33,650 bases of DNA from Nitrospira sp. bin75. GTDB lineage: Bacteria > Nitrospirota > Nitrospiria > Nitrospirales > UBA8639. The number at the start of each line of letters is the position of its first letter. Position 1 is the first letter of the stretch. Below, piece after piece: positions 294 to 13,943 of the stretch. The position numbers were made by a program, and so were the translations under genes. The DNA lies in NCBI GenBank assembly GCA_002238765.1, contig MPMZ01000031.1, forward strand, positions 1 to 33,650, in the 5' to 3' direction. The notes beneath the pieces are model-generated. The model was not told the DNA's origin and did no database searches. It worked only from the letters and a program-made list of their open reading frames with translations.

Positions 294-316
294 GCCCTCT
301 CCCTCGAGTGAAGGGC
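294..316 (+). promoter_or_regulatory. Leader hairpin 2
   Basis: GCCCT pairs with AGGGC around a 13-base loop ending in GTGA. The tract CAGGCGCTCACAC, then AAAAGGAG and ATG at 348, follows. It belongs to the AGGGCCAG sequence class of the leader family. Confidence 0.7.
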
Positions 317-347
317 CAGGCGCTCACACTTAAAAGGAGTCACGACC

Positions 348-557
348 ATGTCTCTCTCCTCGGATCTTGAACGAAGCATCCTCGCTGAATTGAAGACGCT
401 TCTCTGCAATCGCAAACTGCGAATGAAAGACCTCTATGAATGGTCCTCCGGTCCGGTCACACCCCGCGCCGGCGAAATCGCCGTCGACGTAAAGCTCTAC
501 AATACGGTCTGGCACTGCTGCGTCCCTGAAAGCGCAGAGAAAAGACCATCCGGTTAA
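348..557 (+). CDS. Small hypothetical protein (69 aa)
   Basis: The ATG at 348 is set by a strong AAAAGGAG about 8 bases upstream and by the leader hairpin at 294-316. The 69-residue product has an amphipathic N-terminus (SSDLERSILAELKTLL) and a short aromatic C-terminal part containing VWHCCVP. No family was recognised. It has no signal peptide or membrane segment. It is followed by 440 bases without a gene, so it is probably transcribed as its own short module. Confidence 0.7.
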   Translation: MSLSSDLERSILAELKTLLCNRKLRMKDLYEWSSGPVTPRAGEIAVDVKLYNTVWHCCVPESAEKRPSG

Positions 558-939
558 TCGGCCGGCCGGTGCCGGACACCCACTCTCGTCGGCCACTCTC
601 TTTTCTCGGCTTTGCCACGGCTCCTTCGGTACCGACTTCCCGCTCTTTCCCTTTTGCCCGGGGTCACACCCCGTCGTCTTCTCTCCTCGCCCCCGCCCCT
701 CATACCTTGAGACCCTCCTGCCAGCCTTCCGCGCTTCACACCTTCCTCACCCTTCCGGCTCCTTCCGTGTCTCCTGATCTCGATTCCCTGGCCGTAGCTC
801 GGGCCGCTTCGCTCCGCGTCGGACGCGCCTTGCCTCACAAAGGACATGCCTTCTCTCTGTTCACGCATTTGTCCTTGCAGCGCCGCTTACCGACCAGCGC
901 CCCGCCCAGCCGGTCGTCTCCTTCTGCATTCATGACGCA
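558..939 (+). other. C-rich, G-poor intergenic leader region
   Basis: No convincing gene is present on either strand. The plus strand is strongly pyrimidine-rich, with C well above G over most of the stretch. Long reading frames here are low-complexity translations of CT-rich DNA. The composition is what Rho-dependent terminators use, and it also resembles the unstructured upstream parts of the other leaders (3050-3460, 8180-8410). Confidence 0.5.
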
Positions 940-963
940 GACCTCCTGCCTTCGTGAGAGGTC
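940..963 (+). promoter_or_regulatory. Leader hairpin 3
   Basis: GACCTC pairs with GAGGTC around the 12-base loop CTGCCTTCGTGA. It is followed by AGTTCATTCA, then AAGGAG at 983-988 and ATG at 998. This is a typical member of the GAGGTC class, nearly identical to copies at 2753 and 8413. Confidence 0.8.
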
Positions 964-997
964 AGTTCATTCATAAACTTACGAAGGAGACTTCATC

Positions 998-1171
998 ATG
1001 GAATCCATCATCGACACTTTCACCGGCATTCAACCCCCTCCGGTCATACCAACACCCGATGGGCTTGAAATCGATCAAGCCGATATCGTCGCCTACAAAG
1101 ACATGGGTTTCGGCTACCGCGTCACGCTGGCAAACGGCACTCGGCGCTTCGTCTCTTACGACGACATGTAG
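998..1171 (+). CDS. Small hypothetical protein (57 aa)
   Basis: The ATG at 998 follows AAGGAGACTTCATC and leader hairpin 3, exactly as in the other leader-driven genes, which supports this short frame. The 57-residue product is acidic, with a Pro-rich N-terminal part (IQPPPVIPTPDG) and a C-terminal segment, YRVTLANGTRRFVSYDDM, that reads like a small beta-hairpin domain. No family was recognised. A GC-rich hairpin starts ten bases after the stop codon and probably ends the transcript. Confidence 0.65.
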   Translation: MESIIDTFTGIQPPPVIPTPDGLEIDQADIVAYKDMGFGYRVTLANGTRRFVSYDDM

Positions 1172-1180
1172 CTGCCCTCC

Positions 1181-1208
1181 GGCCGGCCTGGGGGTTCCCG
1201 GGCCGGCC
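1181..1208 (+). terminator. GC-rich hairpin after the 57-aa gene
   Basis: The arms GGCCGGCC and GGCCGGCC pair around an inner GGG/CCC extension. There is no clear T tract, only GTCTTCGTC, so it may act as a transcript 3' end or processing barrier rather than a strong intrinsic terminator. Confidence 0.45.
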
Positions 1209-1253
1209 GTCTTCGTCATCCGGTTGCGGGATCGCGGTCGGAACCGAAGAATC

Positions 1254-1285
1254 GAGCCGGTCCAGGTTCGAACCTGGGCCGGCTC
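1254..1285. repeat. Near-perfect 32-bp palindrome
   Basis: The half GAGCCGGTCCAGGTTC is followed by GAACCTGGGCCGGCTC. The two arms are complementary except for one T/G position, which would still pair in RNA. The centre GGTTCGAACC resembles a tRNA T-arm but no tRNA body is present. It may be a transcript-end hairpin or a protein binding palindrome. Confidence 0.6.
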
Positions 1286-1887
1286 TTTGAGTGATCTTGT
1301 CACGGCCGCCCTTTCTCTCATCCACCCCTTTTCCGGAAGCTCCCATCAGAAAGTCCCATCAGAAGTTACGATCGGAAACTGTCCGTCCGAAGCCATCACC
1401 AACACCCACTGCCCATCACGTCGCGGCCCTCACCTTATTCTCTCTCCGCTCATCATGATTGCCCTCCCCACATGCTCGCCCCGCCTGGCCTAATGGCTAG
1501 GCGGAGGTCCGGAGCGCGGGAGCGAAGCGCCGGCGCTCCTCTCGCCTCACGTTCGCCCCCAAAAATCCTCGGCCGCCACACCTCATGCTTCGGTCTTCCG
1601 GCGCGCGTCTTGCCCCTCCATCTTCCCTTCTGTCTGCCGGCAGCCGAAAAGGTTACGGGCTTCACAACTCATGTTGTCGGATTGCGTCGATCGTCGCCTC
1701 TTCCCGAAGGGCCTGGAGGCGCTTAGGCTCACCTCCTCTTGGCTCATTGACGTGCGGCTTAGGCGATCTGCTCTCATCGCCGCGTCCTGGAGGGTTTGGG
1801 CTCCGCCCTCGATCCGGACAAGCGCTACGCGCTAGGTCCTCTCGACCATCCACCAGATCCCCGCGTGTCTCCTTGTCGTTTCTCTCA
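1286..1887 (+). other. Long intergenic region with hairpins and repeats
   Basis: No supported gene. It contains two copies of TCCCATCAGAA (1341-1351, 1354-1364), a hairpin CCGCCTGGCC/GGCTAGGCGG at 1481-1504, and the GGAGCGC hairpin at 1511-1539 that recurs near 13828. A GTCTCCTTGTCGTT box at 1867-1880 recurs upstream of other leader hairpins. Confidence 0.5.
1505..1540 (+). repeat. GGAGCGC/GCGCTCC repeat hairpin, copy 1
   Basis: AGGTCCGGAGCGCGGG, then GCGCCGGCGCTCCT, form a stem with arms GGAGCGC and GCGCTCC. Nearly the same sequence is found at 13823-13858 at the end of the last small gene. Here no gene ends at it, which suggests a copied transcript-end element or the remains of a lost gene. 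Confidence 0.6.
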
Positions 1888-1921
1888 CGACCCCTCCCTA
1901 TCAGGGTTCCCTATAGGGTCG
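1888..1921 (+). promoter_or_regulatory. Leader hairpin 4
   Basis: CGACCC pairs with GGGTCG around a long loop that contains a smaller CCCTATCAGGG-type hairpin. GATTCATTCAC and AAGGAG at 1938-1943 follow, with ATG at 1950. The stem sequence differs from other copies but the pairing and position are kept. Confidence 0.7.
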
Positions 1922-1949
1922 ATTCATTCACTAAATCAAGGAGACGAAC

Positions 1950-2159
1950 ATGAAGCAGACTCACAAAGCCACACTCAACACCCAAACCGCACGGCAGCCC
2001 GTCACGCACCAGATCCACAGTTACGACGTCACGATCACACTCTCTTCCGACAACAAAAACCAAGAACCCATAACCGTTAAAACCGTCCGCCTCGCAGACT
2101 TGCCAGCCTTGCTGCAAGCCTTGGCAAAAATCGAGGAGCAACACGCCGCGATCGCTTAA
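1950..2159 (+). CDS. Small hypothetical protein (69 aa)
   Basis: The start is fixed by AAGGAG seven bases before ATG and by leader hairpin 4. The 69-residue product has a polar N-terminus, a short beta-rich centre (SYDVTITLSSDNK, then TVKTVRLADLP) and an amphipathic C-terminal helix (LLQALAKIEEQHAAIA). The ending resembles that of the 80-aa protein at 3522 (INQQIAALA). No family was named. A strong hairpin follows the stop, and the next small gene is less than 100 bases downstream, so the two may share a transcript. Confidence 0.7.
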   Translation: MKQTHKATLNTQTARQPVTHQIHSYDVTITLSSDNKNQEPITVKTVRLADLPALLQALAKIEEQHAAIA

Positions 2160-2172
2160 AGAAGCGATCGCA

Positions 2173-2205
2173 CCGCCGCGACGGCCAGGGTGCCGTCGCT
2201 GGCGG
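2173..2205 (+). terminator. Strong hairpin between small genes
   Basis: CCGCC-GCGACGGC pairs with GCCGTCGC-T-GGCGG around CAGGGT, about 13 bp with one bulge. A related hairpin with the same CCGCACCGCCGCG context occurs after the 80-aa gene at 3785. There is no T tract directly after it; it may protect or define the 3' end of the upstream message. Confidence 0.55.
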
Positions 2206-2247
2206 CCGGCGAACCTTTCTCTAACTTTCACTTCTCTGGAGGACACT

Positions 2248-2385
2248 ATGAGAATCACTCGAAAGAAATTCTTCAAAACCACGGCCGCGAAGATCGCCAA
2301 TCCGTATCTCGGCTGGCGCTGCATCTTCTTTGGACTCCTCCGAGTCTCAGAAGATTGTTACCGCACCGGCCCGCCGATCCGCTAA
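2248..2385 (+). CDS. Small basic protein (45 aa)
   Basis: ATG at 2248 is preceded by CTGGAGGAC (GGAGG about 6 bases upstream). The 45-residue product begins MRITRKKFFKTTAAKIANPY, is strongly basic, and continues with a hydrophobic WRCIFFGLL stretch. The charge suggests nucleic-acid binding or membrane association, but this is inference. An excellent intrinsic terminator starts 12 bases after the stop, which supports a real transcription unit. The basic start recalls the 54-aa protein at 13681. Confidence 0.6.
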   Translation: MRITRKKFFKTTAAKIANPYLGWRCIFFGLLRVSEDCYRTGPPIR

Positions 2386-2397
2386 GGCCTTCCCTCC

Positions 2398-2437
2398 GGG
2401 CCTGGATCTCGCTTCTCGGGATCCAGGCCCTTTTTTT
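2398..2437 (+). terminator. Intrinsic terminator
   Basis: GGGCCTGGATC pairs with GATCCAGGCCC and is followed directly by seven T residues. This is a textbook Rho-independent terminator closing the module that ends with the 45-aa gene. Confidence 0.92.
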
Positions 2438-2588
2438 ACTCATCCCACTGCATTTCAAAACCGGCTTCCTGACTCTCTCCCTCCGACAGAAGATCCGAGT
2501 CTCAACAACCTCTCGCAGATCGGCTCCCGTGGCAGCCCAAGCGCCCTCTCCCATCCTTTCTACTCCCTGCGCTGGCTCCGAATACGGC

Positions 2589-2810
2589 TTTTTGTCCTGT
2601 TGCTCCGTGGTCCTCCCAGGCCTGGGCTACGCCCCCTCCCGCGCCGGCAGAGGCCGTGCCTTACTCTGCGTTTCAGTCACTTTGGCCTTGCCGATCGGCG
2701 CTTGGTCGACCGGCCCTCCGGCCGCCGGCCGTCTCCTTGTCCGTGTCTGTCCCGACCTCCTGCATTCGTGAGAGGTCGATTCATCTACTAACAACCAAGG
2801 AAACTTCATC
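2589..2810 (+). repeat. Long leader repeat, copy A
   Basis: About 220 bases upstream of the 39-aa gene are closely matched by 6722-6942, including the long shared blocks around CGCGCCGGCAGAGGCCGTG and GGCCTTGCCGATCGGCGCTT. A shorter, diverged copy is at 8302-8468. The repeat ends in the leader hairpin, ribosome binding site and start codon, after which the genes differ. Confidence 0.85.
2753..2778 (+). promoter_or_regulatory. Leader hairpin 5
   Basis: CGACCTC pairs with GAGGTCG, 7 bp, around CTGCATTCGTGA. ATTCATCTACTAACAACCAAGG leads into a ribosome binding site (AAGGAAA) and ATG at 2811. Confidence 0.82.
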
Positions 2811-2930
2811 ATGACGAACAACAAAGCCATCAAAATCAACGCCACCGCCAAAGTCACCGGAAGCAAAAAAGGCGCCAAGAGAGAAGCTGCCAAGAAGGCC
2901 CGTCGCCTCTTCACCCGAGTGCCCCGCTGA
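2811..2930 (+). CDS. Very small, highly basic protein (39 aa)
   Basis: The ATG at 2811 follows AAGGAAACTTCATC and leader hairpin 5. The 39-residue product is rich in Lys, Arg and Ala, including SKKGAKREAAKKARRLFTR, with almost no acidic residues, so it may bind nucleic acid. A perfect intrinsic terminator begins 26 bases after the stop. The full leader-gene-terminator arrangement makes a real monocistronic unit likely despite the length. Family unknown. Confidence 0.65.
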   Translation: MTNNKAIKINATAKVTGSKKGAKREAAKKARRLFTRVPR

Positions 2931-2955
2931 TCGTCGAAGGGAGAGAAATACAGAA

Positions 2956-2990
2956 GGCGTCGCGGTCTCTGACCGCGACGCCTTTTTCTT
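2956..2990 (+). terminator. Intrinsic terminator
   Basis: GGCGTCGCGGTC pairs perfectly with GACCGCGACGCC around a 3-base loop, followed by TTTTTCTTT. A very strong Rho-independent terminator for the 39-aa gene. Confidence 0.95.
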
Positions 2991-3459
2991 TATCCCCTCA
3001 ATCTCCAAAGCACACTTCAAGAACACTACAAAACCCAATTTTTCTGTTTACCCAGGGCTTCCACCTTTTTCCTGGAATCGCGGCCTAGCGGACCGGGTGT
3101 CGCGGGATCCGGAAACCGGATCGGCGTCTCTGGTCTTTCCTGGTTCACATTTCTCACCCGCTGGCCGGACCGGTTGCTTCCTTGCCTGACTCGACTCCCC
3201 CGGGCCCAGGACTCTTTCTTCCTCATTCTTCTTACTCTGGCTTCTGTGCTTCGTCTCGGCGACGGGGCAATAGGGGCTTGTTCCGTTGTCGGCCTTCCGG
3301 CCGGCTTGAGCTTCGCTCTCGGCCGCACGCTCTCGGTTCGGGCTCCTTGACGCCCGGTCCTTCCGTCCATTCGCGCCTCCAGGCATCGGGCTACCGAGCC
3401 GTGCATATGTTGGCCGACCAGCCGGACCGGGGCCGACCGTCCCCTTGTTGTTCACTCGA
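2991..3459 (+). other. Intergenic leader region, C-rich
   Basis: No supported gene. The plus strand is C/T-rich, with a few long open frames that look like composition artefacts. A GTCCCCTTGTTGTTCA box at about 3439-3454 corresponds to GTCTCCTTGTCGTTCA before other leader hairpins. Confidence 0.45.
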
Positions 3460-3488
3460 CTGGCCCTCTCCGCTTGGTGTAGGGCCAG
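3460..3488 (+). promoter_or_regulatory. Leader hairpin 6
   Basis: CTGGCCCT pairs with AGGGCCAG, 8 bp, around CTCCGCTTGGTGT. It is followed by TTCATTCAC, AAGGAG and ATG at 3522. It joins the AGGGCCAG stem type to the TTCATTCAC tail typical of the GAGGTC class, linking the two subfamilies. Confidence 0.82.
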
Positions 3489-3521
3489 TTCATTCACGAA
3501 CACAAACAAGGAGACTCAACT

Positions 3522-3764
3522 ATGGATCAGCCCCAAAATAACACCCCTCAAAAACCCGTGATCGAGCACAAAGACGGCGCCATTAAGGCCGCGGTCTGGC
3601 CGAACGAGGGAGCCAATGGGCCGTATCACACGGTCTCGATTTTCCGCATTTACAAAGCTCAGGACGGCAAATGGAAGCAAACCAAGTCGTTCCGGGCCAA
3701 AGACATGCCGGTTGTGGCGCGAGTCGCCACCGAAATCAACCAGCAAATCGCCGCGTTGGCTTAG
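3522..3764 (+). CDS. Small conserved-type protein, paralogue of the 6943 gene (80 aa)
   Basis: The start is set by AAGGAG and leader hairpin 6. The core pattern GAIKAAVWPNEGANGPYHTV, then F-IYK-DGKWK-T-FRAKDMPVVA, is matched residue by residue by the protein at 6943 (GAVVASVWKNDGQNGPYRTV). The fold looks like a small all-beta domain followed by one helix. From memory, similar W-N-GPY-TV-R-YK-W proteins are common as hypothetical proteins in plasmids and Planctomycetes; this was not checked. Function unknown, possibly single-stranded DNA or RNA binding. Confidence 0.8.
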   Translation: MDQPQNNTPQKPVIEHKDGAIKAAVWPNEGANGPYHTVSIFRIYKAQDGKWKQTKSFRAKDMPVVARVATEINQQIAALA

Positions 3765-3784
3765 AAAGCCTCCGCACCGCCGCG

Positions 3785-3805
3785 CGACGGGCGCTTGGCC
3801 CGTCG
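3785..3805 (+). terminator. Hairpin after the 80-aa gene
   Basis: CGACGGGC pairs with GCCCGTCG around GCTT. The flanking CCGCACCGCCGCG resembles that at 2170, showing that 3' hairpins here are also related to one another. No T tract. Confidence 0.5.
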
Positions 3806-3853
3806 TTAGCGGCCGCGATTCCTTTCAAATCTTTCTGGATGGAGGAAAACCCA

Positions 3854-4321
3854 ATGCCAGACGACACACAACCCCATCGCCTCGAATTTGGATCCATCAC
3901 CCTTCACCAACCACCCGAAGGTGATGAGATCCCGCCCGAATCCGTCAAAGTCTTCATGCCGGCTTCGGACGGCGGCAGGCACTGCATCGGCTTCCTGTTC
4001 GCCGATTCCAGCATGGATAGCTGCTGGGGCGCGTCTGACGGCGTCCGCGAGGCACTCGCGGCAGGACAGTTCACCACGTTTCCTGACCTGACCTCCCTGA
4101 AACAACACCTGCGCGCCCTTTACGCCACGCGCCATGCCACGGATCGCCGACTCAAAGACAGCATCAATACCGTCTATCAGCGGGCGCACGAGCTCGAATC
4201 GCTGGCACGGCAAGCGGACAACATCCACGTCCGCGATTCCATGTTCACTTTCAAGCTCCACCTCGACTCATGCCGCGCCATTTTGGAACTCGGTGGCCAC
4301 GAACACGAAATCCCTCGATAG
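3854..4321 (+). CDS. Hypothetical protein (155 aa)
   Basis: The frame is open further upstream, but the ATG at 3854 is preceded by ATGGAGGAAAAC, an ideal ribosome binding site, so it is taken as the start. The N-terminal half is beta-like (VKVFMPASDGGRHCIGFLFAD). From about residue 75 it is helical (LKQHLRALYATRHATDRRLKDSI). There is a His-rich tail (GGHEHEIPR). No membrane segment or known domain was seen. It heads a close run of three larger genes (3854, 4366, 4772) that probably share a transcript. Confidence 0.75.
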   Translation: MPDDTQPHRLEFGSITLHQPPEGDEIPPESVKVFMPASDGGRHCIGFLFADSSMDSCWGASDGVREALAAGQFTTFPDLTSLKQHLRALYATRHATDRRLKDSINTVYQRAHELESLARQADNIHVRDSMFTFKLHLDSCRAILELGGHEHEIPR

Positions 4322-4365
4322 CCGCCCACCTCTTGCTCACTTTCCAAACCAAAGGACGTTCACTC

Positions 4366-4755
4366 ATGCCTCAATTCGAACTCCCGGAAAAAACCATATC
4401 TGGAAAACCCCTCACGATCGCCGGCCTGTCCGACCAGGCGCAACGACTCCTCCGCCAGGGCTGGACCAAGGGAACCATCGCGCGCGATTCACGCGGAGAC
4501 GCCCTCGACTGCGACGATCCTAACGCCGTCTCCTGGTGCCTCATCGGCAGCATCAATCGCGCCTACTACGACCTCACCGGCCGACGCCCAAACTACACCG
4601 GCCCCTACCGCGAATTTTGGGAACGCATCGAAGCCGGCCTCTTGCATCGCTATGGCCACAAGGACCTCATTGAAGCCAATGACGCCCAAACCACCGTCTC
4701 CCCTCTGCTCGCTCTGCTCCGCGACGCTCGCTTTCCGCAACCTCCCATATACTGA
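4366..4755 (+). CDS. DUF6197-like protein (129 aa)
   Basis: ATG at 4366 follows AAAGGACG, which selects it over earlier in-frame starts. The block GWTKGTIARDSRGDALDCDD, then AVSWCLIGSINRAYYDL, matches what I recall of the DUF6197 family of actinobacterial, proteobacterial and plasmid proteins (W-x-G-x-x-A-RD..G, D-A-x-x-WC-x-x-G-A). The assignment is by motif only. The molecular role of that family is not established. It lies between two other unassigned genes in the same direction, 44 bases after the first and 16 before the next. Confidence 0.7.
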   Translation: MPQFELPEKTISGKPLTIAGLSDQAQRLLRQGWTKGTIARDSRGDALDCDDPNAVSWCLIGSINRAYYDLTGRRPNYTGPYREFWERIEAGLLHRYGHKDLIEANDAQTTVSPLLALLRDARFPQPPIY

Positions 4756-4771
4756 TCTCTAAAGGAGAACC

Positions 4772-5185
4772 ATGACCACCATCACCCTTGAAATCCAAAA
4801 AGAACCCCGCGATGCCGTGCGCTTCCATCGCCACTACAATCCGGACTCGCACCAATGGGAGCTCGTCCGCATTACCGAATACCACGTCGGCTCCTTCGAC
4901 GATGAAAAAACGACCCAGCAACTCGCCAATTTTTGGGGCCAGGTCTACTTTGAGCGGACTTACTACAATGCAACCCGAGTCTACCTCGAGGGCGCTTACG
5001 TCGCCGATATCGTCCTCGTTCATTCCAGAACCGAGGCCTCAAAATGGTTCATTGATCGCCGCGTTCAGAACGCCGTCGAAATGGCTTTCGAGACGAGCGG
5101 CTTTCTCTCCTCTCACGCGGCTGAAAAACTAATCCTCGATGCCTGGCAAGCGAAATGCCAGCGCGAAGGCAAGACCTTCCCCTAA
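4772..5185 (+). CDS. Hypothetical protein (137 aa)
   Basis: AAAGGAG six bases before ATG fixes the start. The 137-residue product is rich in aromatic residues and His (RFHRHYNPDSHQWELVRI) and has an alpha-helical C-terminal third. There is no signal sequence or transmembrane helix. No family recognised. The short gap to the preceding gene (16 bases) suggests translational or transcriptional coupling; the next gene has its own hairpin leader. Confidence 0.75.
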   Translation: MTTITLEIQKEPRDAVRFHRHYNPDSHQWELVRITEYHVGSFDDEKTTQQLANFWGQVYFERTYYNATRVYLEGAYVADIVLVHSRTEASKWFIDRRVQNAVEMAFETSGFLSSHAAEKLILDAWQAKCQREGKTFP

Positions 5186-5199
5186 ATACTGATCGCGCC

Positions 5200-5229
5200 C
5201 TGGGCCCTCTCCCCAGAGTGAAGGGCCAG
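5200..5229 (+). promoter_or_regulatory. Leader hairpin 7
   Basis: GGCCCT pairs with AGGGCC, extendable with one bulged G to CTGG-CCCT/AGGGCCAG, around CTCCCCAGAGTGA. CGCTCACTCACT, AAGGAGG and ATG at 5262 follow. Nearly the same downstream tract is found after hairpin 2. Confidence 0.78.
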
Positions 5230-5261
5230 GCGCTCACTCACTGACACAAGGAGGCTTCACG

Positions 5262-5429
5262 ATGGTTCGACTGCAAATACAGGAAACCGCTACCGGCTGG
5301 CACGTGCACGTCCACCCTTCTGATAAATTCAATCTCGACCAGGACTACACCCTCGCCTCCAAGCGCGAAGCGCTGCAAAAGGCCAAGGACGTGCTCGAAC
5401 AATGGATCTTGGAGGTGGAGGACTGCTGA
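5262..5429 (+). CDS. Small hypothetical protein (55 aa)
   Basis: The ATG at 5262 lies eight bases after AAGGAGG and behind leader hairpin 7. The 55-residue product has a beta part (VRLQIQETATGWHVHVHPSD) followed by a single helix (SKREALQKAKDVLEQWILEV), a layout resembling small HicB-like or double-stranded-RNA-binding-like folds. No family is claimed. A GGCCGG/CCGGCC hairpin follows the stop within three bases. Confidence 0.68.
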   Translation: MVRLQIQETATGWHVHVHPSDKFNLDQDYTLASKREALQKAKDVLEQWILEVEDC

Positions 5430-5431
5430 CC

Positions 5432-5445
5432 GGCCGGGGCCGGCC
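5432..5445 (+). terminator. Short GC hairpin
   Basis: GGCCGG pairs with CCGGCC around GG directly after the stop codon of the 55-aa gene, then GTCTTGAC. It resembles the hairpin after the 57-aa gene at 1181, including the GTCTT tail. Confidence 0.4.
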
Positions 5446-5495
5446 GTCTTGACAATTTGCTCCAAACGTCACATGCTTATGAAAGGAGAATTCTT

Positions 5496-5810
5496 ATGAG
5501 CGATACCGTCATCTTCGACACCAATCTGCACATCAAGCGCATCACAAAAACCGGCGTCTCTCACGAAACCGCCGAAGCCTTCGTCGAAACCGTCGCGCAC
5601 GTCCTCGAACACAATCTCGCCACGAAGACCGACATTGAAGCCTTGCGTCTCGCGACGAAGACCGACATCGAACTCCTGCGAAAAGAGACTCAAATAGCCA
5701 TCACAAAGCTTGAAAACAAGCTTATTAGGTGGATCGTCGGTATGACCCTCGGCATGACGCTCACCACGATACTCGCTTTTATAGGAATAGCCGCCGTCTT
5801 CATCAAATAG
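5496..5810 (+). CDS. DUF1640-like coiled-coil membrane protein (104 aa)
   Basis: The ATG at 5496 follows GAAAGGAGAA. The product starts with a soluble segment, then has two tandem heptad-like repeats (LATKTDIEALR, LATKTDIELLR), a coiled-coil stretch (KETQIAITKLENKLI) and a C-terminal membrane helix of about 25 hydrophobic residues (WIVGMTLGMTLTTILAFIGI). This order is typical of DUF1640/CCDC90-type proteins, tail-anchored coiled-coil proteins of unclear function often found on mobile elements. The following gene encodes a shortened relative, so the two are probably co-transcribed. Confidence 0.8.
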   Translation: MSDTVIFDTNLHIKRITKTGVSHETAEAFVETVAHVLEHNLATKTDIEALRLATKTDIELLRKETQIAITKLENKLIRWIVGMTLGMTLTTILAFIGIAAVFIK

Positions 5811-5826
5811 CGGGGAGAGGAACCCA

Positions 5827-8142: not shown

Positions 8143-8146
8143 GTTG

Positions 8147-8301: not shown

Positions 8302-8468
8302 CGGCCGTCCTGCACAGGCCGTGCCCTCCTCTGCGTTTCAGGCACTTTGGCCTTGCCCACGTCGCGGGCCGGCCGGACGTGCGGCTCCAGTCTCCTTGTC
8401 GTTCATTCCATGGACCTCCTGCTTTCGTGAGAGGTCGATTCATTCACACACTTCAAGGAGACAAGACG
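8302..8468 (+). repeat. Long leader repeat, copy C (shorter, diverged)
   Basis: Shares CAGGCCGTGCC, TCTGCGTTTCAGGCACTTTG and GCCTTGCC with copies A and B, then a GTCTCCTTGTCGTTCATTCC box and the hairpin. Parts between these blocks differ. The upstream bases 8177-8301 contain no gene. Confidence 0.7.
8413..8436 (+). promoter_or_regulatory. Leader hairpin 11
   Basis: GACCTC pairs with GAGGTC around CTGCTTTCGTGA, the same loop as in hairpins 3 and 5 with one change. GATTCATTCACACACTTC, AAGGAG and ATG at 8469 follow. Confidence 0.82.
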
Positions 8469-8639
8469 ATGGAACAAACCACTCAAACCTCAATATTCTT
8501 AGTCCGGATCGGCTCACAAACACTGAGCATCGTTCCCGCCGTCCCTAACCCTGTCACTTGCACCAATCCGCGCTGCAAATACACCTACAGCGCCCAGTCC
8601 CAGGTCGCATCCGGCCTTTGCCCGATCTGCCGGCCGTAA
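8469..8639 (+). CDS. Small zinc-ribbon protein (56 aa)
   Basis: The ATG at 8469 follows AAGGAGACAAGACG and leader hairpin 11, which sets it apart from the longer open frame upstream. The C-terminal half has CTNPRCKYTY, then CPICRP, giving C-x(4)-C and C-x(2)-C pairs 17 residues apart, a likely zinc ribbon of the rubredoxin or FmdB type. It may be a small regulator or a protein partner. No near family is named. Confidence 0.7.
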   Translation: MEQTTQTSIFLVRIGSQTLSIVPAVPNPVTCTNPRCKYTYSAQSQVASGLCPICRP

Positions 8640-8905
8640 TCATTCGGAAAGGAATTTTCCTCTTGACCGATTCTCCTTTACACGACAATCACTTCCATCC
8701 GGCCGACGCGGGCGGATAATACCCTTATTGCTACCCTTATTTAGGCGTTACTACCCTTATTCTTGCAGAAACGCCAGCGTGCCCTCGGCCCCTGCATGCC
8801 AGCATGGTCCTTCTGACCACTGCTTCGCGCTGGCCTAGGGCCACGTCGATTCGGCACCCTGCTCCTCCCGGCATCGGCGCGACCCAAACTGCCGTGTTCA
8901 TTTCA
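8640..8905 (+). other. Intergenic region with TACCCTTATT repeats
   Basis: No gene supported. Three direct copies of TACCCTTATT occur at 8720-8729, 8732-8741 and 8752-8761. The remainder has leader-like composition and ends in GTTCATTTCACGACC, a box shared with the region before hairpin 17. Confidence 0.6.
8720..8761. repeat. Three direct repeats TACCCTTATT
   Basis: Identical 10-mers at 8720, 8732 and 8752, start-to-start distances 12 and 20. They are AT-richer than the surroundings. Possible binding sites for a regulator or an iteron remnant. Confidence 0.75.
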
Positions 8906-8931
8906 CGACCTCTTGATGATATGAGAGGTCG
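8906..8931 (+). promoter_or_regulatory. Leader hairpin 12
   Basis: CGACCTC pairs with GAGGTCG, 7 bp, around TTGATGATATGA. The loop differs fully from hairpins 3, 5 and 11 apart from the final TGA, while the stem is the same. ATTCATTCACC, AAGGAG and ATG at 8962 follow. Confidence 0.82.
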
Positions 8932-8961
8932 ATTCATTCACCCTGACAAGGAGCTTTCATC

Positions 8962-9144
8962 ATGGACAACCCCACCGCGACGCCAGAGACGCGAAGGCTG
9001 GCTGCCAAGCTCGCGCGTCACTACGTCTTCCTCCAGGAACTCGTCAATGACCTCGAGTCCGGAGCCATTCACATTCAAGACTTCGATCAAGAATCTCTCG
9101 ATCGCTTGCGCGCAGCGCTTGAGAAAGGAAGGGTTTCACCATGA
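8962..9144 (+). CDS. Small helical hypothetical protein (60 aa)
   Basis: ATG at 8962 follows AAGGAGCTTTCATC and hairpin 12. The 60-residue product is predicted helical throughout (TRRLAAKLARHYVFLQELVN, then DQESLDRLRAALEKG), like a small helix-turn adaptor. No family recognised. Its stop overlaps the next start in an ATGA, so the two genes are translationally coupled. Confidence 0.72.
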   Translation: MDNPTATPETRRLAAKLARHYVFLQELVNDLESGAIHIQDFDQESLDRLRAALEKGRVSP

Positions 9145-9353
9145 ATCAGGTACTCCAATCCACTCACACTCCCAATGCCGGCGTCGACATCGAGGGCGCT
9201 TTCATTCTCTACTGCCCTAAGCCATTCAAGCGACCCCGCAATCGCAACCCGCACATCAAAGGCTGCTGGTATTGCGGACGCTCGGTCGACATCCACCGAG
9301 ACCCACATTTCTATACTGACAGGACACGCCTCACTTGCGAGGCGTGTTACTGA
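9141..9353 (+). CDS. Small zinc-binding protein (70 aa)
   Basis: The start overlaps the preceding stop by four bases (ATGA), behind AAAGGAAGGG. It contains CWYCGRSVDIHRDPHF, then CEACY: two CxxC pairs with His residues between, a probable zinc-ribbon. The N-terminal half holds GAFILYCPKPFKRPRNRN, also with a Cys. Its function is unknown; the coupling to the helical 60-aa protein suggests that the two act together. Confidence 0.72.
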   Translation: MNQVLQSTHTPNAGVDIEGAFILYCPKPFKRPRNRNPHIKGCWYCGRSVDIHRDPHFYTDRTRLTCEACY

Positions 9354-9369
9354 CATCGCCACCGCGCGG

Positions 9370-9396
9370 CTGGTCCTCTTCCAGGGTGAGGACCAG
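9370..9396 (+). promoter_or_regulatory. Leader hairpin 13
   Basis: CTGGTCCTC pairs with GAGGACCAG, 9 bp, around TTCCAGGGT. GCCGCTTACTCACTGC follows, then a weaker ribosome binding site (AGAAAGGG) and ATG at 9429. Confidence 0.8.
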
Positions 9397-9428
9397 GCCG
9401 CTTACTCACTGCAAACAGAAAGGGTCAC

Positions 9429-9590
9429 ATGCCCACCAATAACACCATCTACAAATGCGAAACCTGCGGGAAAGAAGAGATATGGGAATGGGGCGGCGAA
9501 TACATTGAACACCTGAGCCACATGGGAAAAGGAAATTGCGGCTGGATGTATCCCGTCCCAAGCAACACTCCGACGACATCCACCCACTGA
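9429..9590 (+). CDS. Small zinc-finger-like protein (53 aa)
   Basis: ATG at 9429 follows AGAAAGGGTCAC and hairpin 13. The product has CETCGKEEIWEWGGEYIEHL, then SHMGKGNCGW: CxxC plus two His and a later Cys, resembling a single zinc finger. It ends in a Thr/Ser/Pro-rich tail. A DNA-binding role is possible but not shown. The next gene starts 20 bases after the stop. Confidence 0.62.
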   Translation: MPTNNTIYKCETCGKEEIWEWGGEYIEHLSHMGKGNCGWMYPVPSNTPTTSTH

Positions 9591-9610
9591 AAATATGAAA
9601 GGATTTCCGC

Positions 9611-9898
9611 ATGCCTTGGAAAATCGTCAGTCCTCACGACACCAAACTCATTCAGCAAATCGCAAAACGGGCCAGCGAGCTCACAAACACCAAATACCCG
9701 TTCGCTCACCCCGAGGATCTCGTCTTCGCCCTTCGGCTCGGCCACCTTTCGATGCCCCTCGATCTCGAAGCCCTCTTTGCGGCCGAGGACGACCAATTCG
9801 CGGGCGACGTCTTCGGTATTCACCTCAATCTCCGTCTCCGGCCGGGTCCCATCTTCAACAATAACTTCACTCCCCGCTTTGCCCGCGTCCAAACTTGA
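9611..9898 (+). CDS. DUF6874-like protein (95 aa)
   Basis: ATG at 9611 follows GAAAGGATTTCC. The sequence has the features I recall for DUF6874 proteins of proteobacterial integrative elements: an N-terminal helix (DTKLIQQIAKRASELTN), a central MPLDLEALFAAEDDQFAGDV-like block followed by FGIH-L, and a C-terminal FTPRFARVQ. The match is from memory of the family pattern (A-DD-FAHD-FGI, PRFARP). Biochemical function unknown. Its presence supports a conjugative-element origin of this region. Confidence 0.72.
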   Translation: MPWKIVSPHDTKLIQQIAKRASELTNTKYPFAHPEDLVFALRLGHLSMPLDLEALFAAEDDQFAGDVFGIHLNLRLRPGPIFNNNFTPRFARVQT

Positions 9899-9909
9899 AT
9901 CATTGTGAG

Positions 9910-9939
9910 CCTGGTCCTCTTTCGTGGTGGAGGACCAGG
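9910..9939 (+). promoter_or_regulatory. Leader hairpin 14
   Basis: CCTGGTCCTC pairs with GAGGACCAGG, 10 bp, around TTTCGTGGTG. TCACTCACTCAACCGC, AAAGGAGG and ATG at 9970 follow. Confidence 0.83.
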
Positions 9940-9969
9940 TCACTCACTCAACCGCAAAGGAGGCCTTGC

Positions 9970-11463
9970 ATGACACCCACCGCGACACTCGATCTCGAAG
10001 AGCCACTTGAAGACGCTAATACCGTGGCCCGCAATACCGGGATGATTCCCCGCGCCACAATTGACGCCATCGTCGCGCTTCGCAATGCTGCGCTCGACCG
10101 GTGCCGCTTCGCTCATCAGAAAATCGCCGAAGCGGAGGACGCGATCGCGGCCGCGCAAAAGGCCATCATGGAGTCTGCTCCCGAACAGGTTAGCACCTAC
10201 ACCTTCGGCAGCCGTGCGCGTAATGAATTTCTAGCCTCGCTTGAACCCCCGCACGTCGACAACTTCATGAAAGACGCCCGCGAAATGATTGACACCCATG
10301 TCTGGTCCTACATCATCCATCTCACCGACATGCACTCCCTCATGGATCGCCAGGAAAAGGACAGCATGCGAAAGAGTCTCCAATCCGAACCGCCAGAAGT
10401 CACCGTCGACAACGTCCACGCCACGCTCTCCCGTTTCCTCGCCGATGCCGACACCATCTGGAAACGCGGGCTCGCCAATACCTTTGCCGGCCTCGACCGG
10501 CGCTTCCGCTCACACAATGGCTGGCGCTTCGGCAGCCGTATCATCCTCGATCGTGTCTTCGACGAATACGGCTGCTGGAGCTACCGCAACACGAAAGAAG
10601 ATTTCATCATCGACGCGGAACGCGCCTTTTTCATTCTCTCCGGCCAAACGCCTCCTCCTAATTGGTACGGCCTCGTCGACAAGATCCGCCGAGAGCGCCA
10701 ATACGGCCAAGGGCCGCGGCAATCCACCGTCACCTCCATGTTTTTCAAAATCAACATCTACAAAAACGGCAACTGCCATCTCTGGTTCACTCGGGATGAC
10801 CTCGTAAAGAAAGCCAATCGCATCCTCGCTGAATACTACGGCGAGGTCCTCAGCGACGGTGACGCGCACGAACCCGAGGACACCTTTGCTTCGAAAACCA
10901 GCCTCGCCCGCAACTTCGGCCACTACCCGACACCCGAATCCGTTGCAAGGCGTGTCGTCGAAGCCGCCTCCATCCGAAGCCCTCGGGACGGTGAATCCCC
11001 ATCACTTATCCTTGAGCCCAGCGCCGGGGGCGGCAATATCGCGTTGCTTGCCGCCCAACACGCTCGCGTCGACTGTATTGAAATTCAACCCCATCTCGCC
11101 GACGCCCTACGGGCCTCCGGCTGTTACCGCAATGTCTGGACAGCCGATTTCCTCGACAGAACGCCGAACCCCAGCTACGACTACGTGTTGATGAATCCCC
11201 CCTTCGACCGGGACCGCGACGTCGACCACGTCACTCATGCGCTTGAGTTCCTCAAGCCTGACGGTCTCCTCATCGCCGTGATGTCGGCCGGCACGGAATT
11301 CCGGGAAACGGCCAAATGCCGTGCCTTCCGTGATCGCATGGCGAAAATGAAGGCCCAATGGAAAGACCTGCCCATCGGCGCGTTCTCCTCCGTCGGAACC
11401 AACGTCAACACCCTCCTCCTAAAAGTCTATAAAGACGGCCGGGCACAGTCCCGTTGGTGGTAG
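9970..11463 (+). CDS. DUF4942 DNA adenine methyltransferase (497 aa)
   Basis: Probable N6-adenine DNA methyltransferase using S-adenosylmethionine. ATG at 9970 follows AAAGGAGGCCTTGC and hairpin 14; the open frame upstream has no comparable start. The N-terminal about 300 residues match the DUF4942 type (helical, with many W and Y, for example NGNCHLWF). The C-terminal part is a class I methyltransferase: motif I LEPSAGGGNIALLA near residue 348, IEIQPHLADAL as the acidic loop, and the catalytic NPPF at residues 409-412. DUF4942 methyltransferases are carried by plasmids and integrative elements, where they may give protection from host restriction. No restriction partner lies beside it, so it acts as an orphan methylase. 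Confidence 0.9.
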   Translation: MTPTATLDLEEPLEDANTVARNTGMIPRATIDAIVALRNAALDRCRFAHQKIAEAEDAIAAAQKAIMESAPEQVSTYTFGSRARNEFLASLEPPHVDNFMKDAREMIDTHVWSYIIHLTDMHSLMDRQEKDSMRKSLQSEPPEVTVDNVHATLSRFLADADTIWKRGLANTFAGLDRRFRSHNGWRFGSRIILDRVFDEYGCWSYRNTKEDFIIDAERAFFILSGQTPPPNWYGLVDKIRRERQYGQGPRQSTVTSMFFKINIYKNGNCHLWFTRDDLVKKANRILAEYYGEVLSDGDAHEPEDTFASKTSLARNFGHYPTPESVARRVVEAASIRSPRDGESPSLILEPSAGGGNIALLAAQHARVDCIEIQPHLADALRASGCYRNVWTADFLDRTPNPSYDYVLMNPPFDRDRDVDHVTHALEFLKPDGLLIAVMSAGTEFRETAKCRAFRDRMAKMKAQWKDLPIGAFSSVGTNVNTLLLKVYKDGRAQSRWW

Positions 11464-11495
11464 ACCTTTCAACCTCTTCCCTGCTTCGTCGTGAG

Positions 11496-11524
11496 CCTGG
11501 TCCTCTTCCAGTTGGAGGACCAGG
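11496..11524 (+). promoter_or_regulatory. Leader hairpin 15
   Basis: CCTGGTCCTC pairs with GAGGACCAGG, 10 bp, around TTCCAGTTG. TCACTCACATAACC, AAGGAG and ATG at 11558 follow. Same stem as hairpin 14 with a different loop. Confidence 0.83.
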
Positions 11525-11557
11525 TCACTCACATAACCTTTCACAAGGAGACTCCAC

Positions 11558-12082
11558 ATGATGCCGCACACCTTAACCATCGACGTTCAGCAATCTCATG
11601 TGGAGCTCGTCTGGCGACTCGATCCCCGTTACGGCATGACCCCCTTTCATCCGGCTTTACTCGATCGCTTTGGTAAATCCACGGTCGTCACCGTGGACGC
11701 GGAACACGTTCACATCGAGCAGCCGGACGGCCAAAAAGCCACCTATGACCTCACTCCCGAAGCCCACGATTACCTCACCACGTTTCAGGAGGCCGTCCTG
11801 GACGGCACGGACGCACACATCCCCAAAGCCTTCGCGCCCGTCGCCTTTACCTTAGAGATCCACCAGGACAACCCCACCATTGATCCTCGATGGGAACAGC
11901 ATCCGACCAAGGGCTCCTATTACAAACTCATCCGGCCTTCCGGAGGCGGCTGGGCCGTCATCCGCGTCGACACAACCCGCATTCGCACCTTTCCTGAAAC
12001 CCAAGGCCGCGCCGCCGCTGAATACCGGGACCGGCTCAACGACCGAGCTCACGAATACGACCTCAATCACCGGGACCTCTAA
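11558..12082 (+). CDS. Hypothetical protein (174 aa)
   Basis: Two adjacent ATG codons (11558, 11561) lie seven and ten bases after AAGGAG; either may serve. The 174-residue protein is beta-rich in the N-terminal half (VTVDAEHVHIEQPDGQKATY), with a W-containing central part (GSYYKLIRPSGGGWAVIRVD) and a charged helical end (AAAEYRDRLNDRAHEYDLNH). No family recognised. It is the first gene of a close group (11558, 12116, 12552) in which all members have their own ribosome binding sites and short gaps. Confidence 0.75.
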   Translation: MMPHTLTIDVQQSHVELVWRLDPRYGMTPFHPALLDRFGKSTVVTVDAEHVHIEQPDGQKATYDLTPEAHDYLTTFQEAVLDGTDAHIPKAFAPVAFTLEIHQDNPTIDPRWEQHPTKGSYYKLIRPSGGGWAVIRVDTTRIRTFPETQGRAAAEYRDRLNDRAHEYDLNHRDL

Positions 12083-12115
12083 ACCCTTGTCCCGCTGAAA
12101 CCCATGGAGACCTCA

Positions 12116-12508
12116 ATGGAATATCTCACGACACAGTTCATGACCGAAGAAGAACACGGCCACATCCTCTCGCGTTGGACGAAAGAAGTCACTGACAAGG
12201 TCCACGCAATCGCCGATGATATCGTCGCTCACTACGACGGCGACTTTGAAGCTGCCCGCGACGGCGAAGATGAAGCCGCCTACACCTTTGTCAGCGACGA
12301 TGCCTGCCACCAGGACATCAATTTTGTCTTCAAAACCATTCGCACCATGAGCGACGAAGAAGAATCCCACGCCTGGGGGCTCCTCTTTAATGAAGACCTC
12401 GGCTCGACGCGCTATTTCACGGGTCTCATGTGCAACTTTGTTGAACTCTATCTACAGGAGCGCGTCAAACTCCGCCTCGCGGAGCTCGAAGCCATCGCCG
12501 CGTCCTAG
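12116..12508 (+). CDS. Acidic helical hypothetical protein (130 aa)
   Basis: Two in-frame ATG codons exist. The one at 12116 is preferred because GGAGA lies seven bases before it, whereas 12104 has no ribosome binding site. The product is strongly acidic and mostly helical (HYDGDFEAARDGEDEAAYTF, then SDEEESHAWGLLF), the charge profile of DNA-mimic anti-restriction proteins such as Ocr or ArdA. That comparison rests on charge only; no ArdA motif was seen. It sits 33 bases after the 174-aa gene. Confidence 0.72.
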   Translation: MEYLTTQFMTEEEHGHILSRWTKEVTDKVHAIADDIVAHYDGDFEAARDGEDEAAYTFVSDDACHQDINFVFKTIRTMSDEEESHAWGLLFNEDLGSTRYFTGLMCNFVELYLQERVKLRLAELEAIAAS

Positions 12509-12551
12509 ACCCATCAATCCCTCAACCTTCCACCCTGACTACGGAGGCCCC

Positions 12552-12932
12552 ATGAACGTACTCTGCAACATTTACGAAGTTACCAATCGCCGTCACCTCC
12601 TCAGTGGCGCGGATGAAGATTACACCTGGCATCTCTTCCGTAATAAACAGGGAACCATCGCGGGGGGCACGTTTCACCGCAGCTACGCCAAAGCCGTTTT
12701 CATCCGCGTTCCCCGCTACTCCAATCTCGACGAGATCGCCCCCCTTGTTCACAAAGCAATCGGCCGTGAAGAACCCTATGCCGTCTGCGAACTCGGCACA
12801 GATGCCTCGATCGTCAATATCCAACCCCTCCTGCACCAAAACAACATCCCCTACTGTGCCTCCTTCAATCTCTATGAACAGCCACAAGACGAAGCGAAAC
12901 GGCGCACCGTAGCCCCACTCATGGTGAAGTAG
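12552..12932 (+). CDS. Hypothetical protein (126 aa)
   Basis: ATG at 12552 follows ACGGAGGCCC, which selects it within a longer open frame. The product has W, H and Y residues in a beta-rich core (YTWHLFRNKQGTIAGGTFHR), then NLDEIAPLVHKAIGREEPYA. No known family. It shares the direction and spacing of its two upstream neighbours and probably belongs to their transcript. Confidence 0.73.
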   Translation: MNVLCNIYEVTNRRHLLSGADEDYTWHLFRNKQGTIAGGTFHRSYAKAVFIRVPRYSNLDEIAPLVHKAIGREEPYAVCELGTDASIVNIQPLLHQNNIPYCASFNLYEQPQDEAKRRTVAPLMVK

Positions 12933-13024
12933 GCCACTCCTCACTTCATTCAGAGCGCCGTTCGACGGCCGTTTTCTCGTTCACTCGGCACTCCTTCTCG
13001 CCAAGGCGCTCGCCCCTTCTCCCT

Positions 13025-13078
13025 GAAAAAGCCCTTCCTAGTGAGGACTTTGTTCACGACAAAGGGGTTGTCTTTTTC
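13025..13078 (+). promoter_or_regulatory. Leader hairpin 16 (compound variant)
   Basis: An outer stem GAAAAAG/CTTTTTC encloses an inner hairpin CTTTGT-TCACG-ACAAAG. AAAAGGAG and ATG at 13100 follow. The stem bases are unrelated to other copies, but the position is the same. Confidence 0.5.
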
Positions 13079-13099
13079 AAACACAAAAGGAGCGCCATC

Positions 13100-13657
13100 A
13101 TGAACAATGCTTGCTTCCAGCACACCAATCAAACGGCCTTTGTCCTTTCTCCGGATCAGCATTCCGCCTTCGTCCGGCTGCTCGACACTCACGTCCGGCC
13201 GTCTCTCGCGAAAGACGTTTCCTCTTACGCGCCAGGGCGAACGCGCTGCTGGCTCCGCTGGGAAGGCCCACTCTCTCAATCCCAGGACTATCGCCCGGGA
13301 CTCGTCGTTCCCCCCTTATGGAGGGCCATCACTTCGTGCTGGCAGACGGCCGCGCTCGCCGGTGTTCCGGATCTCGCGCTTGCCATCCATGGTCCCATCG
13401 GCATCCAGCCACACCGAGACGCTTCCTATGCGGCATCCGTCGCTCTCTCCATCAATCTCGGACCTATGGAATGGGGCTGGTCTCCAGATCGCCAATCGAA
13501 TGACGATCAGGATCTCGTCTGGCTTCCCATGACAGGCGGTGAGGTCACCGTCTTCGACTGCAAGCATCGGCATGCAGCCCGTCAGGTCGCCGCGGATCGT
13601 TGGGGAATCATCGCTTGGCAAACCAAGCCCCATCCACTTCCAGACCCGGGGCCATAA
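13100..13657 (+). CDS. Possible 2-oxoglutarate/Fe(II) oxygenase-like protein (185 aa)
   Basis: The start is set by AAAAGGAGCGCCATC. The second half has the residue pattern of a double-stranded beta-helix Fe(II) oxygenase: H105-R-D107 in GIQPHRDASYA, a distal His in VFDCKHRHAAR (H156 or H158), and an Arg about ten residues later (DRWGIIAWQ). In that superfamily the HxD...H triad binds iron and the Arg binds 2-oxoglutarate; substrates range from nucleobases to proteins. The assignment is motif-based and unconfirmed. Being in the same array as an orphan methylase, it could act on nucleic acid, but this is inference. Confidence 0.7.
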   Translation: MNNACFQHTNQTAFVLSPDQHSAFVRLLDTHVRPSLAKDVSSYAPGRTRCWLRWEGPLSQSQDYRPGLVVPPLWRAITSCWQTAALAGVPDLALAIHGPIGIQPHRDASYAASVALSINLGPMEWGWSPDRQSNDDQDLVWLPMTGGEVTVFDCKHRHAARQVAADRWGIIAWQTKPHPLPDPGP

Positions 13658-13680
13658 CGGCCCCATCACGGAGGCCCTCG

Positions 13681-13845
13681 ATGCTCAATAAACTTCTCAA
13701 GATCACCTCTCGCCGAAGCGTCTCGGCCATCTATGGCGAGCGCCTCAAGAAAGACTCCAAGCGCGCCGCCAATCGCGTCGCGCGACGACTCTATCAACCC
13801 ACTACAGTCACTCATCCTTCCAGGTCCGGAGCGCGGGCGCTCTAG
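13681..13845 (+). CDS. Small basic protein (54 aa)
   Basis: ATG at 13681 follows CACGGAGGCCCTCG, 23 bases after the previous stop. The 54-residue product is strongly basic (LLKITSRRSVSAIYGERLKK, then RAANRVARRL), similar in character to the 45-aa protein at 2248. Its last codons lie inside the GGAGCGC terminator-like repeat hairpin, so the C-terminus may have been created by a repeat insertion. Function unknown; nucleic-acid binding is plausible. Confidence 0.62.
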   Translation: MLNKLLKITSRRSVSAIYGERLKKDSKRAANRVARRLYQPTTVTHPSRSGARAL

Positions 13846-13862
13846 CGCCGGCGCTCCTTTCT
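13823..13862 (+). terminator. GGAGCGC repeat hairpin, copy 2 (terminator-like)
   Basis: GGAGCGC pairs with GCGCTCC, with an inner GGCGCT/AGCGCC helix separated by one mismatch, followed by TTTCTCTCTTCC. It overlaps the stop codon of the 54-aa gene and is related to 1505-1540. Confidence 0.65.
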
Positions 13863-13917
13863 CTCTTCCGTCCCTCTCTTTCTCCGGCATACGCTGTCTC
13901 CTTGCCAGTTCATTTCA

Positions 13918-13943
13918 CGACCTCTTTCCCTTACGGAAGGTCG
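13918..13943 (+). promoter_or_regulatory. Leader hairpin 17, orphan
   Basis: CGACCT pairs with AGGTCG around CTTTCCCTTACGGA. GATTCATTCACACACCAC and AAGGAG (13961-13966) follow as in other leaders. ACTT at 13967-13970 is the last conserved part; no ATG or gene follows, and tRNA-Leu starts at 13987. Confidence 0.8.

Follow-up and report, generated by a model that had tools for sequence, protein, structure and literature searches.

A covarying leader family pairing with the Shine-Dalgarno sequence in conjugative elements of Nitrospira and relatives

Results

A recurrent leader along the contig

The window analyzed in this work corresponds to an entire contig (C42; 33,650 bases) of the Nitrospira sp. 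bin75 assembly (3.04 Mb in 115 contigs), and its first 14,000 bases carry a series of small plus-strand genes, followed by tRNA-Leu and tRNA-Ser and then by a tyrosine integrase gene. An original prediction had proposed that about 17 hairpins sharing one layout stand in front of these small genes. Using a strict descriptor of this layout (stem, loop, YYYRYTYA tract and Shine-Dalgarno sequence), we scanned the window and obtained 11 copies on the plus strand and one on the minus strand, as compared to 0.2 per 14 kb in 20 Markov-1 sequences. The proposed layout was thereby recovered, except that the loop is mostly exactly 12 nucleotides (nt) long and not 9–14 nt.

A covariance model (R2) seeded with nine window copies and four copies from contigs C60 and C64 of the same genome raised the window total to 14 copies (Table 1), the non-seed hairpins at 294, 1888, 3460, 5200 and 7676 being recovered at E ≤ 1.6e-6. 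Fourteen of the proposed positions hence form one family. The three others did not join it: the hairpin at 13025 is unsupported by R2 (E 0.45), the one at position 3 gave no R2 match, and the one at 5998, a perfect 10 base pair (bp) stem (GGCCGACGTC/GACGTCGGCC) with CTCAC yet without a Shine-Dalgarno sequence, is a doubtful member that R2 did not find. Across the assembly, R2 identified additional copies on C60 (13.9–21.5 kb), at the start of C64 and, as a single copy, on C52, and no further copy above the E 1e-3 threshold outside C42, C60, C64 and C52. Every window, C60 and C64 copy found by R2 lies on a single strand of its contig.

An inner hairpin and an outer anti-Shine-Dalgarno helix

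The hairpin reported earlier, hereafter P2, is real and consists of a 6–10 bp stem of variable sequence closed by a loop of mostly 12 nt, which starts with C and ends with GTGA. GTGA is followed by a GAG/GAA/AAG arm in 42 of 54 representative family leaders, and the start codon lies 26–33 nt past the end of the P2 stem. What had been overlooked is an outer helix, P1, which encloses P2 and in which, in many copies, an upstream CTCCTTG complements the Shine-Dalgarno sequence CAAGGAG; in leaders carrying both helices (P1+P2), the anti-Shine-Dalgarno sequence (CTCC core) is located about 65 nt upstream of the Shine-Dalgarno sequence. P1 is present in seven window copies (916, 1867, 2731, 3439, 6864, 8390 and 13896) and absent in seven (289, 5196, 7674, 8903, 9368, 9905 and 11491). 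In the 916 copy, whose P2 spans 940–963, P1 joins 916–924 (GTCTCCTTC) to 983–991 (GAAGGAGAC) and shows a G-C to C-G swap relative to other copies, changing CTCCTTG/CAAGGAG into CTCCTTC/GAAGGAG within the same element.

The two architectures differ in their placement. The six P1 copies standing before open reading frames (ORFs) are separated from the previous gene by 326–778 nt (median 514), against 49–322 nt (median 76) for the P2-only copies (p=0.0006), and P1 copies are preceded by strong terminators at 2398, 2952 and 7282. Because of these long upstream gaps and preceding terminators, we conclude that P1+P2 marks the operon-first gene and P2 alone the inner genes of an operon. A GC-rich noncoding module of about 150 nt is found upstream of P1, near-identical before the ORFs at 2811 (2560–2730) and 6943 (6700–6863), with related GC-rich modules at 8230–8389 of the window and at 13760–13910, 15745–15897 and 17130–17275 of a stretch of C60 (L014), while leaders of Nitrospira carry another conserved module of about 220 nt at the equivalent place. 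A candidate pseudoknot between the P2 loop and TCAC was dropped, since loops ending in GCGA and ACGA occur without a matching change.

Both helices covary

For P2, covariation was evaluated on 61 distinct sequences. Pairing is maintained in 95.6% of cells, and all seven pairs were found changed on both sides, in agreement with the compensatory stem changes noted in the original prediction; cells changed on both sides number 103, as compared to 28.0 after shuffling. The covariation score reaches 0.592 versus 0.225 for shuffled alignments (none of 500 shuffles attains it) and 0.059–0.112 when the alignment is slid. The P2 alignment was fitted to the structure, and the slid and shuffled controls constitute the fair comparison.

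Because MAFFT alignments of all leaders misplace the variable stems, P1 was examined by registered arms and permutations: the upstream part of each leader was searched for its best complement to the Shine-Dalgarno region, and the identical search was applied to arms combined across leaders. Mean scores are 8.9 for cognate and 7.2 for foreign arms, with none of 20,000 permutations reaching the observed sum. The same holds when relatives are collapsed to 26, 12 and 8 leaders (z of 8.1, 4.4 and 4.7, respectively; 0 of 20,000 permutations each). The P1 core CTCC/GGAG, which is fixed by the ribosome, remains constant and its flanks change in step, as in GTCTCC/GGAGAC, TGTTCTCC/GGAGAACA, TGTCCTCC/GGAGGACA, CACCTCCT/AGGAGGTG and the flank swap GTCTCCTTTG/CAAAGGAGAC. 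The Shine-Dalgarno sequence supplies the 3' arm of P1 in every clade.

Folding energies point in the same direction. Relative to dinucleotide shuffles, RNAfold gives a mean z of -4.3 for 54 distinct family leaders, 91% of which lie below -2, and a mean z of -0.4 for chromosomal control genes (n=9). A P1+P2 descriptor matches 33 of the 54 family leaders versus 15 of 1080 shuffled sequences, and has no match on one chromosomal contig. The original prediction held that a larger alignment devoid of covariation would speak against it; in the larger alignment both P1 and P2 covary. Taken together, these comparisons of sequences show that both helices are under selection for pairing, as had been proposed for the RNA shape in general, and that P1 covers the Shine-Dalgarno sequence.

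The leader belongs to conjugative elements

A covariance search of the kind suggested earlier reached, in addition to the non-seed window copies, 19 of 98 related genomes, all within two families, and some 70 leaders on conjugative elements from Nitrospira and relatives show the P1+P2 arrangement. In the relatives, 18 of 23 leaders precede members of one protein family of about 80 amino acids. In a Nitrospira element of genome G064, leaders stand before RadC and before ArdC (P1 of 13 perfect pairs), the latter known from conjugative plasmids as a gene for establishment and anti-restriction (PMC7213743), and the RadC genes of G069 and G145 are likewise found behind the leader. In the source genome, genes behind the leader encode DUF932, DUF4326, a DprA/SLOG-like protein, a TSCPD protein and a DUF4942 methyltransferase (DUF4942 match E=4e-45). 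The ortholog of ORF 5262–5429 in genome G012 is preceded by a P1+P2-like leader (L026).

On C64, the leaders adjoin genes for ParA and ParB and F-type transfer genes (TraC, TraH, TraF, TraN, TrbC and TrbI), and Pfam searches of the source genome for VirB4 and TraG were empty, the system on C64 being F-type. Nitrospira elements with leaders contain genes for VirB4, a VirD4-type coupling protein, a type IV secretion system and a relaxase. The F-type genes on C64, together with the latter set, indicate that the conjugative elements carrying the leader use more than one type of transfer system.

Searching a viral collection for the exact leader pattern and for one family protein returned nothing; relatives of the DUF4942 methyltransferase are present there without a convincing leader. 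Among alphaproteobacterial and planctomycete plasmid family members, only the conjugative plasmid pPSMK1 of Phycisphaera mikurensis (L125, NC_017081.1) passes the P1+P2 descriptor, with GGTTTCCTC, a hairpin and GAAAGGAAACC around the ribosome site of its family gene, an arrangement that reads as the same P1+P2 plan in another phylum.

In a set of paralogous Nitrospira leaders (L089:454, L103, L108:366, L116, L122 and L076), P1 and the 5' half of P2 are retained and the 3' side of the middle helix is replaced, as if these leaders had been rewired within one genome.

A small protein family encoded behind the leader

The downstream proteins had been described as unrelated. They are not all so: the proteins at 3522 and 6943, and more weakly that at 1950, belong to the small family found in the relatives. 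C60 encodes two further members, a two-domain protein at 15975 and another at 17350, and a search across the class detected the family in 27 of 98 genomes, with up to 12 copies per genome and a leader at nearly every complete copy. No family protein was found in phage records.

AlphaFold2 models of two members have a bbbb-alpha topology, with predicted local distance difference test values of 89 and 87, the latter for residues 1–84 of the 6943 protein. Foldseek searches with the family models yielded nothing significant (E 0.2 or worse for all rows). After re-alignment with VIA-align, human and fly PURA repeats ranked first for both models (Z 4.3, 63 residues, root-mean-square deviation 2.2–3.5), tied with Crl. 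This weak, model-based likeness to PURA may serve as a lead towards nucleic-acid binding by the family protein.

Table 1. Leader copies and other annotated features of the window (positions in C42; P1 entries give paired segments)
Feature	Position	Strand	Support
P2-only leader of ORF 348–560	289–347	+	R2 E=1.6e-6, non-seed
P1+P2 leader of ORF 998–1171	916–991	+	R2 E=1.5e-19, seed; P1 9 bp
P1+P2 leader of ORF 1950–2159	1867–1945	+	R2 E=2.3e-7, non-seed; P1 1867–1875 with 1937–1945, 9 bp
Conserved GC-rich noncoding upstream module	2560–2730	+	Alignment; follows terminator 2398–2430
P1+P2 leader of ORF 2811–2930	2731–2804	+	R2 E=3.3e-20, seed; P1 2731–2739 with 2796–2804, one mismatch
P1+P2 leader of ORF 3522–3764	3439–3515	+	R2 E=5.7e-15, non-seed; P1 3439–3449 with 3505–3515; fold z -5.6
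Small protein of leader-associated family	3522–3764	+	Family match E=5.7e-30
P2-only leader of ORF 5262–5429	5196–5252	+	R2 E=2.4e-10, non-seed
Doubtful member, hairpin before ORF 6036–6260	5998–6025	+	
P1+P2 leader of ORF 6943–7275	6864–6936	+	R2 E=5.2e-22, seed; P1 6864–6870 with 6930–6936
Leader-associated family protein (110 amino acids), candidate regulator	6943–7275	+	Family match E=1.4e-31
P2-only leader of ORF 7746–7928	7674–7737	+	R2 E=6.7e-10, non-seed
P1+P2 leader of ORF 8469–8639	8390–8462	+	R2 E=8.9e-19, seed; P1 8390–8398 with 8454–8462
P2-only leader of ORF 8962–9144	8903–8957	+	R2 E=2.8e-16, seed
P2-only leader of ORF 9429–9590	9368–9426	+	R2 E=2.4e-10, seed
P2-only leader, stem extended by GTGA/TCAC, of DUF4942-methyltransferase gene 9970–11463	9905–9968	+	R2 E=2.1e-16, seed
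P2-only leader, extended stem, of ORF 11558–12082	11491–11554	+	R2 E=9e-16, seed
P1+P2 leader without ORF, 18 nt before tRNA-Leu	13896–13968	+	R2 E=3e-15, seed; P1 13896–13904 with 13960–13968; fold z -4.1
Tyrosine integrase, mobile-element context	14381–15550	+	Phage_integrase, Phage_int_M, Arm-DNA-bind_3
Mrr-type endonuclease	19793–20776		Defence-like cluster
Helix-turn-helix protein	20974–21381		Defence-like cluster
Mrr-type endonuclease	24198–25199		Defence-like cluster
ResIII-type restriction subunit	25386–27917		Defence-like cluster
N6/N4 DNA methylase	31102–32733		Defence-like cluster

Discussion

Comparison with described systems

In line with the earlier statement that no described motif matches, no Rfam family fits the leader: a search of the whole window at gathering thresholds returned only the two tRNAs, and the leader stretches at a lax threshold gave only far sub-threshold matches. 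In its setting, the closest system is EGeRS1 of the pLS20-family plasmids, GC-rich inverted repeats that extend, in front of several establishment operons, as far as the ribosome binding site, and whose mechanism is described as unknown (PMC8708921). Both precede more than one establishment operon on a conjugative element (here with ArdC, RadC, DUF932 and DUF4326 genes, on elements that also carry transfer genes). EGeRS1, however, is 400–600 bp long, conserved as sequence and found on Bacillus plasmids, and no anti-Shine-Dalgarno helix with a constant-loop hairpin has been described for it. A blastn search of window positions 2560–2815 against 72,556 plasmids gave no match, the presence of pLS20 itself in that collection being unchecked, and the leader of locus L030 produced one 37-base match, in Burkholderia.

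The Frpo/ssi sequences of F-like plasmids, in which folded single-stranded DNA (ssDNA) displays -35 and -10 boxes for RNA polymerase (PMC11541004), resemble the present leaders in that a hairpin recurs in front of leading-region genes on conjugative elements, whereas the latter lack sigma-70-like boxes and pair the Shine-Dalgarno sequence instead. BpuR, a PUR-domain protein of Borrelia, attaches to the 5' region of its own transcript and prevents translation (PMC4347634), but it has one known RNA target and no leader family, and the present protein resembles PUR proteins only weakly. EGeRS1, Frpo and BpuR are the closest analogues, and none of them matches the present RNA. An anti-Shine-Dalgarno helix with an inner hairpin, as seen in the operon-first copies, is shared with Shine-Dalgarno-sequestering leaders such as ribosomal-protein leaders and translational riboswitches, which differ from the leader common to many unrelated conjugative-element genes described here.

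A model for leader-mediated control

With rather more confidence than doubt, we favour a model in which the copies constitute one cis-regulatory mRNA leader family of conjugative elements, serving an establishment/maintenance regulon and probably switched by a co-encoded, self-regulating small protein. The shared translational switch put forward in the original prediction is also the best reading here, since P1 always uses the Shine-Dalgarno sequence as one of its arms; from this pairing we infer an effect on translation. The operon-first copies would fold into a long imperfect hairpin whose P1 helix keeps the ribosome off until it is opened or the balance is changed, and P2, a constant loop on a variable stem, would act as the recognition hairpin. 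In operon-internal copies, P2 stands alone just before a free Shine-Dalgarno sequence, and its occupancy could block or help initiation.

The most likely switch would be the family of about 80 amino acids encoded behind the same leader, which may recognise P2 together with its flanks, control its own synthesis and co-regulate genes required for arrival in a new host (ArdC, RadC, DUF932, the methyltransferase and many small ORFs). Upon entry into a cell lacking the protein, establishment genes would be made, and the accumulating protein would then bind P2 and its flanks and stabilise P1, or block initiation at P2-only copies; the opposite sign, with the protein opening P1, is also conceivable. 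A more specific proposal, which we hold only tentatively and consider less probable than the general model, is that one small PUR/PC4-like protein represses (or licenses) an mRNA set via a portable leader, such that a newly entered copy would be expressed at once in a protein-free cell and then shut itself down, amounting to a translational zygotic induction.

Control of establishment genes is known to proceed via ssDNA promoters and DNA-bound repressors. If the model holds, a portable, covarying leader hiding the Shine-Dalgarno sequence before ardC, radC and small ORFs would represent a post-transcriptional route to establishment control, and would supply one RNA family and one protein family, both undescribed, together with a means of finding, in environmental conjugative elements, establishment genes whose function is unknown. 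Shine-Dalgarno-sequestering leaders are a kind already known; new is the use of one leader for a whole set of conjugative-element genes.

Alternative explanations and points against the model

Sequestration of the Shine-Dalgarno sequence by P1 is also how thermometers and riboswitches operate, and a protein-free sensor, either a thermometer or a small-ligand riboswitch, might open P1 with the small protein being merely one of the regulated genes, a possibility to which the G012 leaders found without a family protein lend some weight. We nevertheless regard such a sensor as unlikely, given that conservation is confined to the 12-nt loop and short flanks, leaving little room for a ligand pocket, that the stems are near-perfect, and that the regulated genes belong to the element and share no metabolite. 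The P2-only copies between operon genes, with their short gaps, would also fit elements of mRNA stability or processing (5' protection, RNase III or RNase E sites) that are not switches; this explanation, if anything slightly less likely still, leaves unexplained the covarying pairing with the Shine-Dalgarno sequence, the fixed loop and the constrained distance to the start codon.

Action in the transferred strand while it is still single-stranded, in the manner of Frpo-type ssDNA promoters or of EGeRS1-like signals, so that the genes would be expressed only on entry, would agree with the conjugative setting and the establishment-type genes, with the confinement of the window, C60 and C64 copies to one strand of each contig and with a GC-rich upstream module resembling EGeRS1 in position (PMC8708921). 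It is nonetheless quite improbable in our view: sigma-70-like sites in positions 1–14300 number 3 versus 3.4 expected, none of them in a leader (a count that covers sigma-70 boxes only), the P1 3' arm is the Shine-Dalgarno sequence in every clade, which a DNA-level signal would not need, and P2-only copies occur inside operons. Mobile or recombination elements spread at gene starts (attC-like cassette sites, repetitive extragenic palindromes or miniature inverted-repeat transposable elements) could account for the many copies in one element and for the near-identical upstream modules at 2560 and 6700. This origin is very improbable, as the sequences differ while pairing stays, the copies always lie on the strand of the gene at a fixed distance from its start, and with the integron-type model the integrase of the element reaches 28 bits where the cut-off is 220.

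Several observations weigh against the leader-and-protein model that we favour. The window leaders fold less strikingly than the family at large (mean z -2.3), the P2-only copies leave the Shine-Dalgarno sequence unsequestered, and the sigma-70 scan placed no promoter. Contrary to the original claim that all copies precede small genes, one (13896–13968, hairpin at 13918) stands before a tRNA and not an ORF. As to the protein, the family has no match in Pfam, PHROGs, NCBIfam models or PDB sequences, its likeness to PUR proteins is weak (about 10% identity and a Z below 5), and G012, a fragmented assembly, has two leaders and no detectable family protein. Moreover, in other phyla the plasmid-borne family members are mostly without the leader, the pairing of leader and family being seen within Nitrospirota, and the assignment of C42, C60 and C64 to one element is deduced from their common leaders and not from the assembly.

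Element ends and neighbouring genes

tRNA genes seem to lie at element ends: in the window, a leader is found directly before tRNA-Leu and tRNA-Ser without an ORF (13896–14186), and on C60 an apparent array of four tRNA genes (L014, 13130–13530) is followed by the start of the leader-bearing part. An identical 19-mer, GGGAACAAACTTGGGAACA, occurs at 14339–14357, just upstream of the C42 integrase gene, and at 13015–13033 of L014, before the C60 tRNA array, and is possibly an element-end or integrase-related repeat. Downstream of the integrase gene, positions 16000–33000 of the window hold a defence-like cluster (Table 1). Elsewhere in the genome, a leader copy followed only by a short ORF (C52:3087–3149, L198) and a fragment of a family protein gene without a leader, near the start of its contig (C61:1064–1339, L199), are possibly decayed copies of the system.

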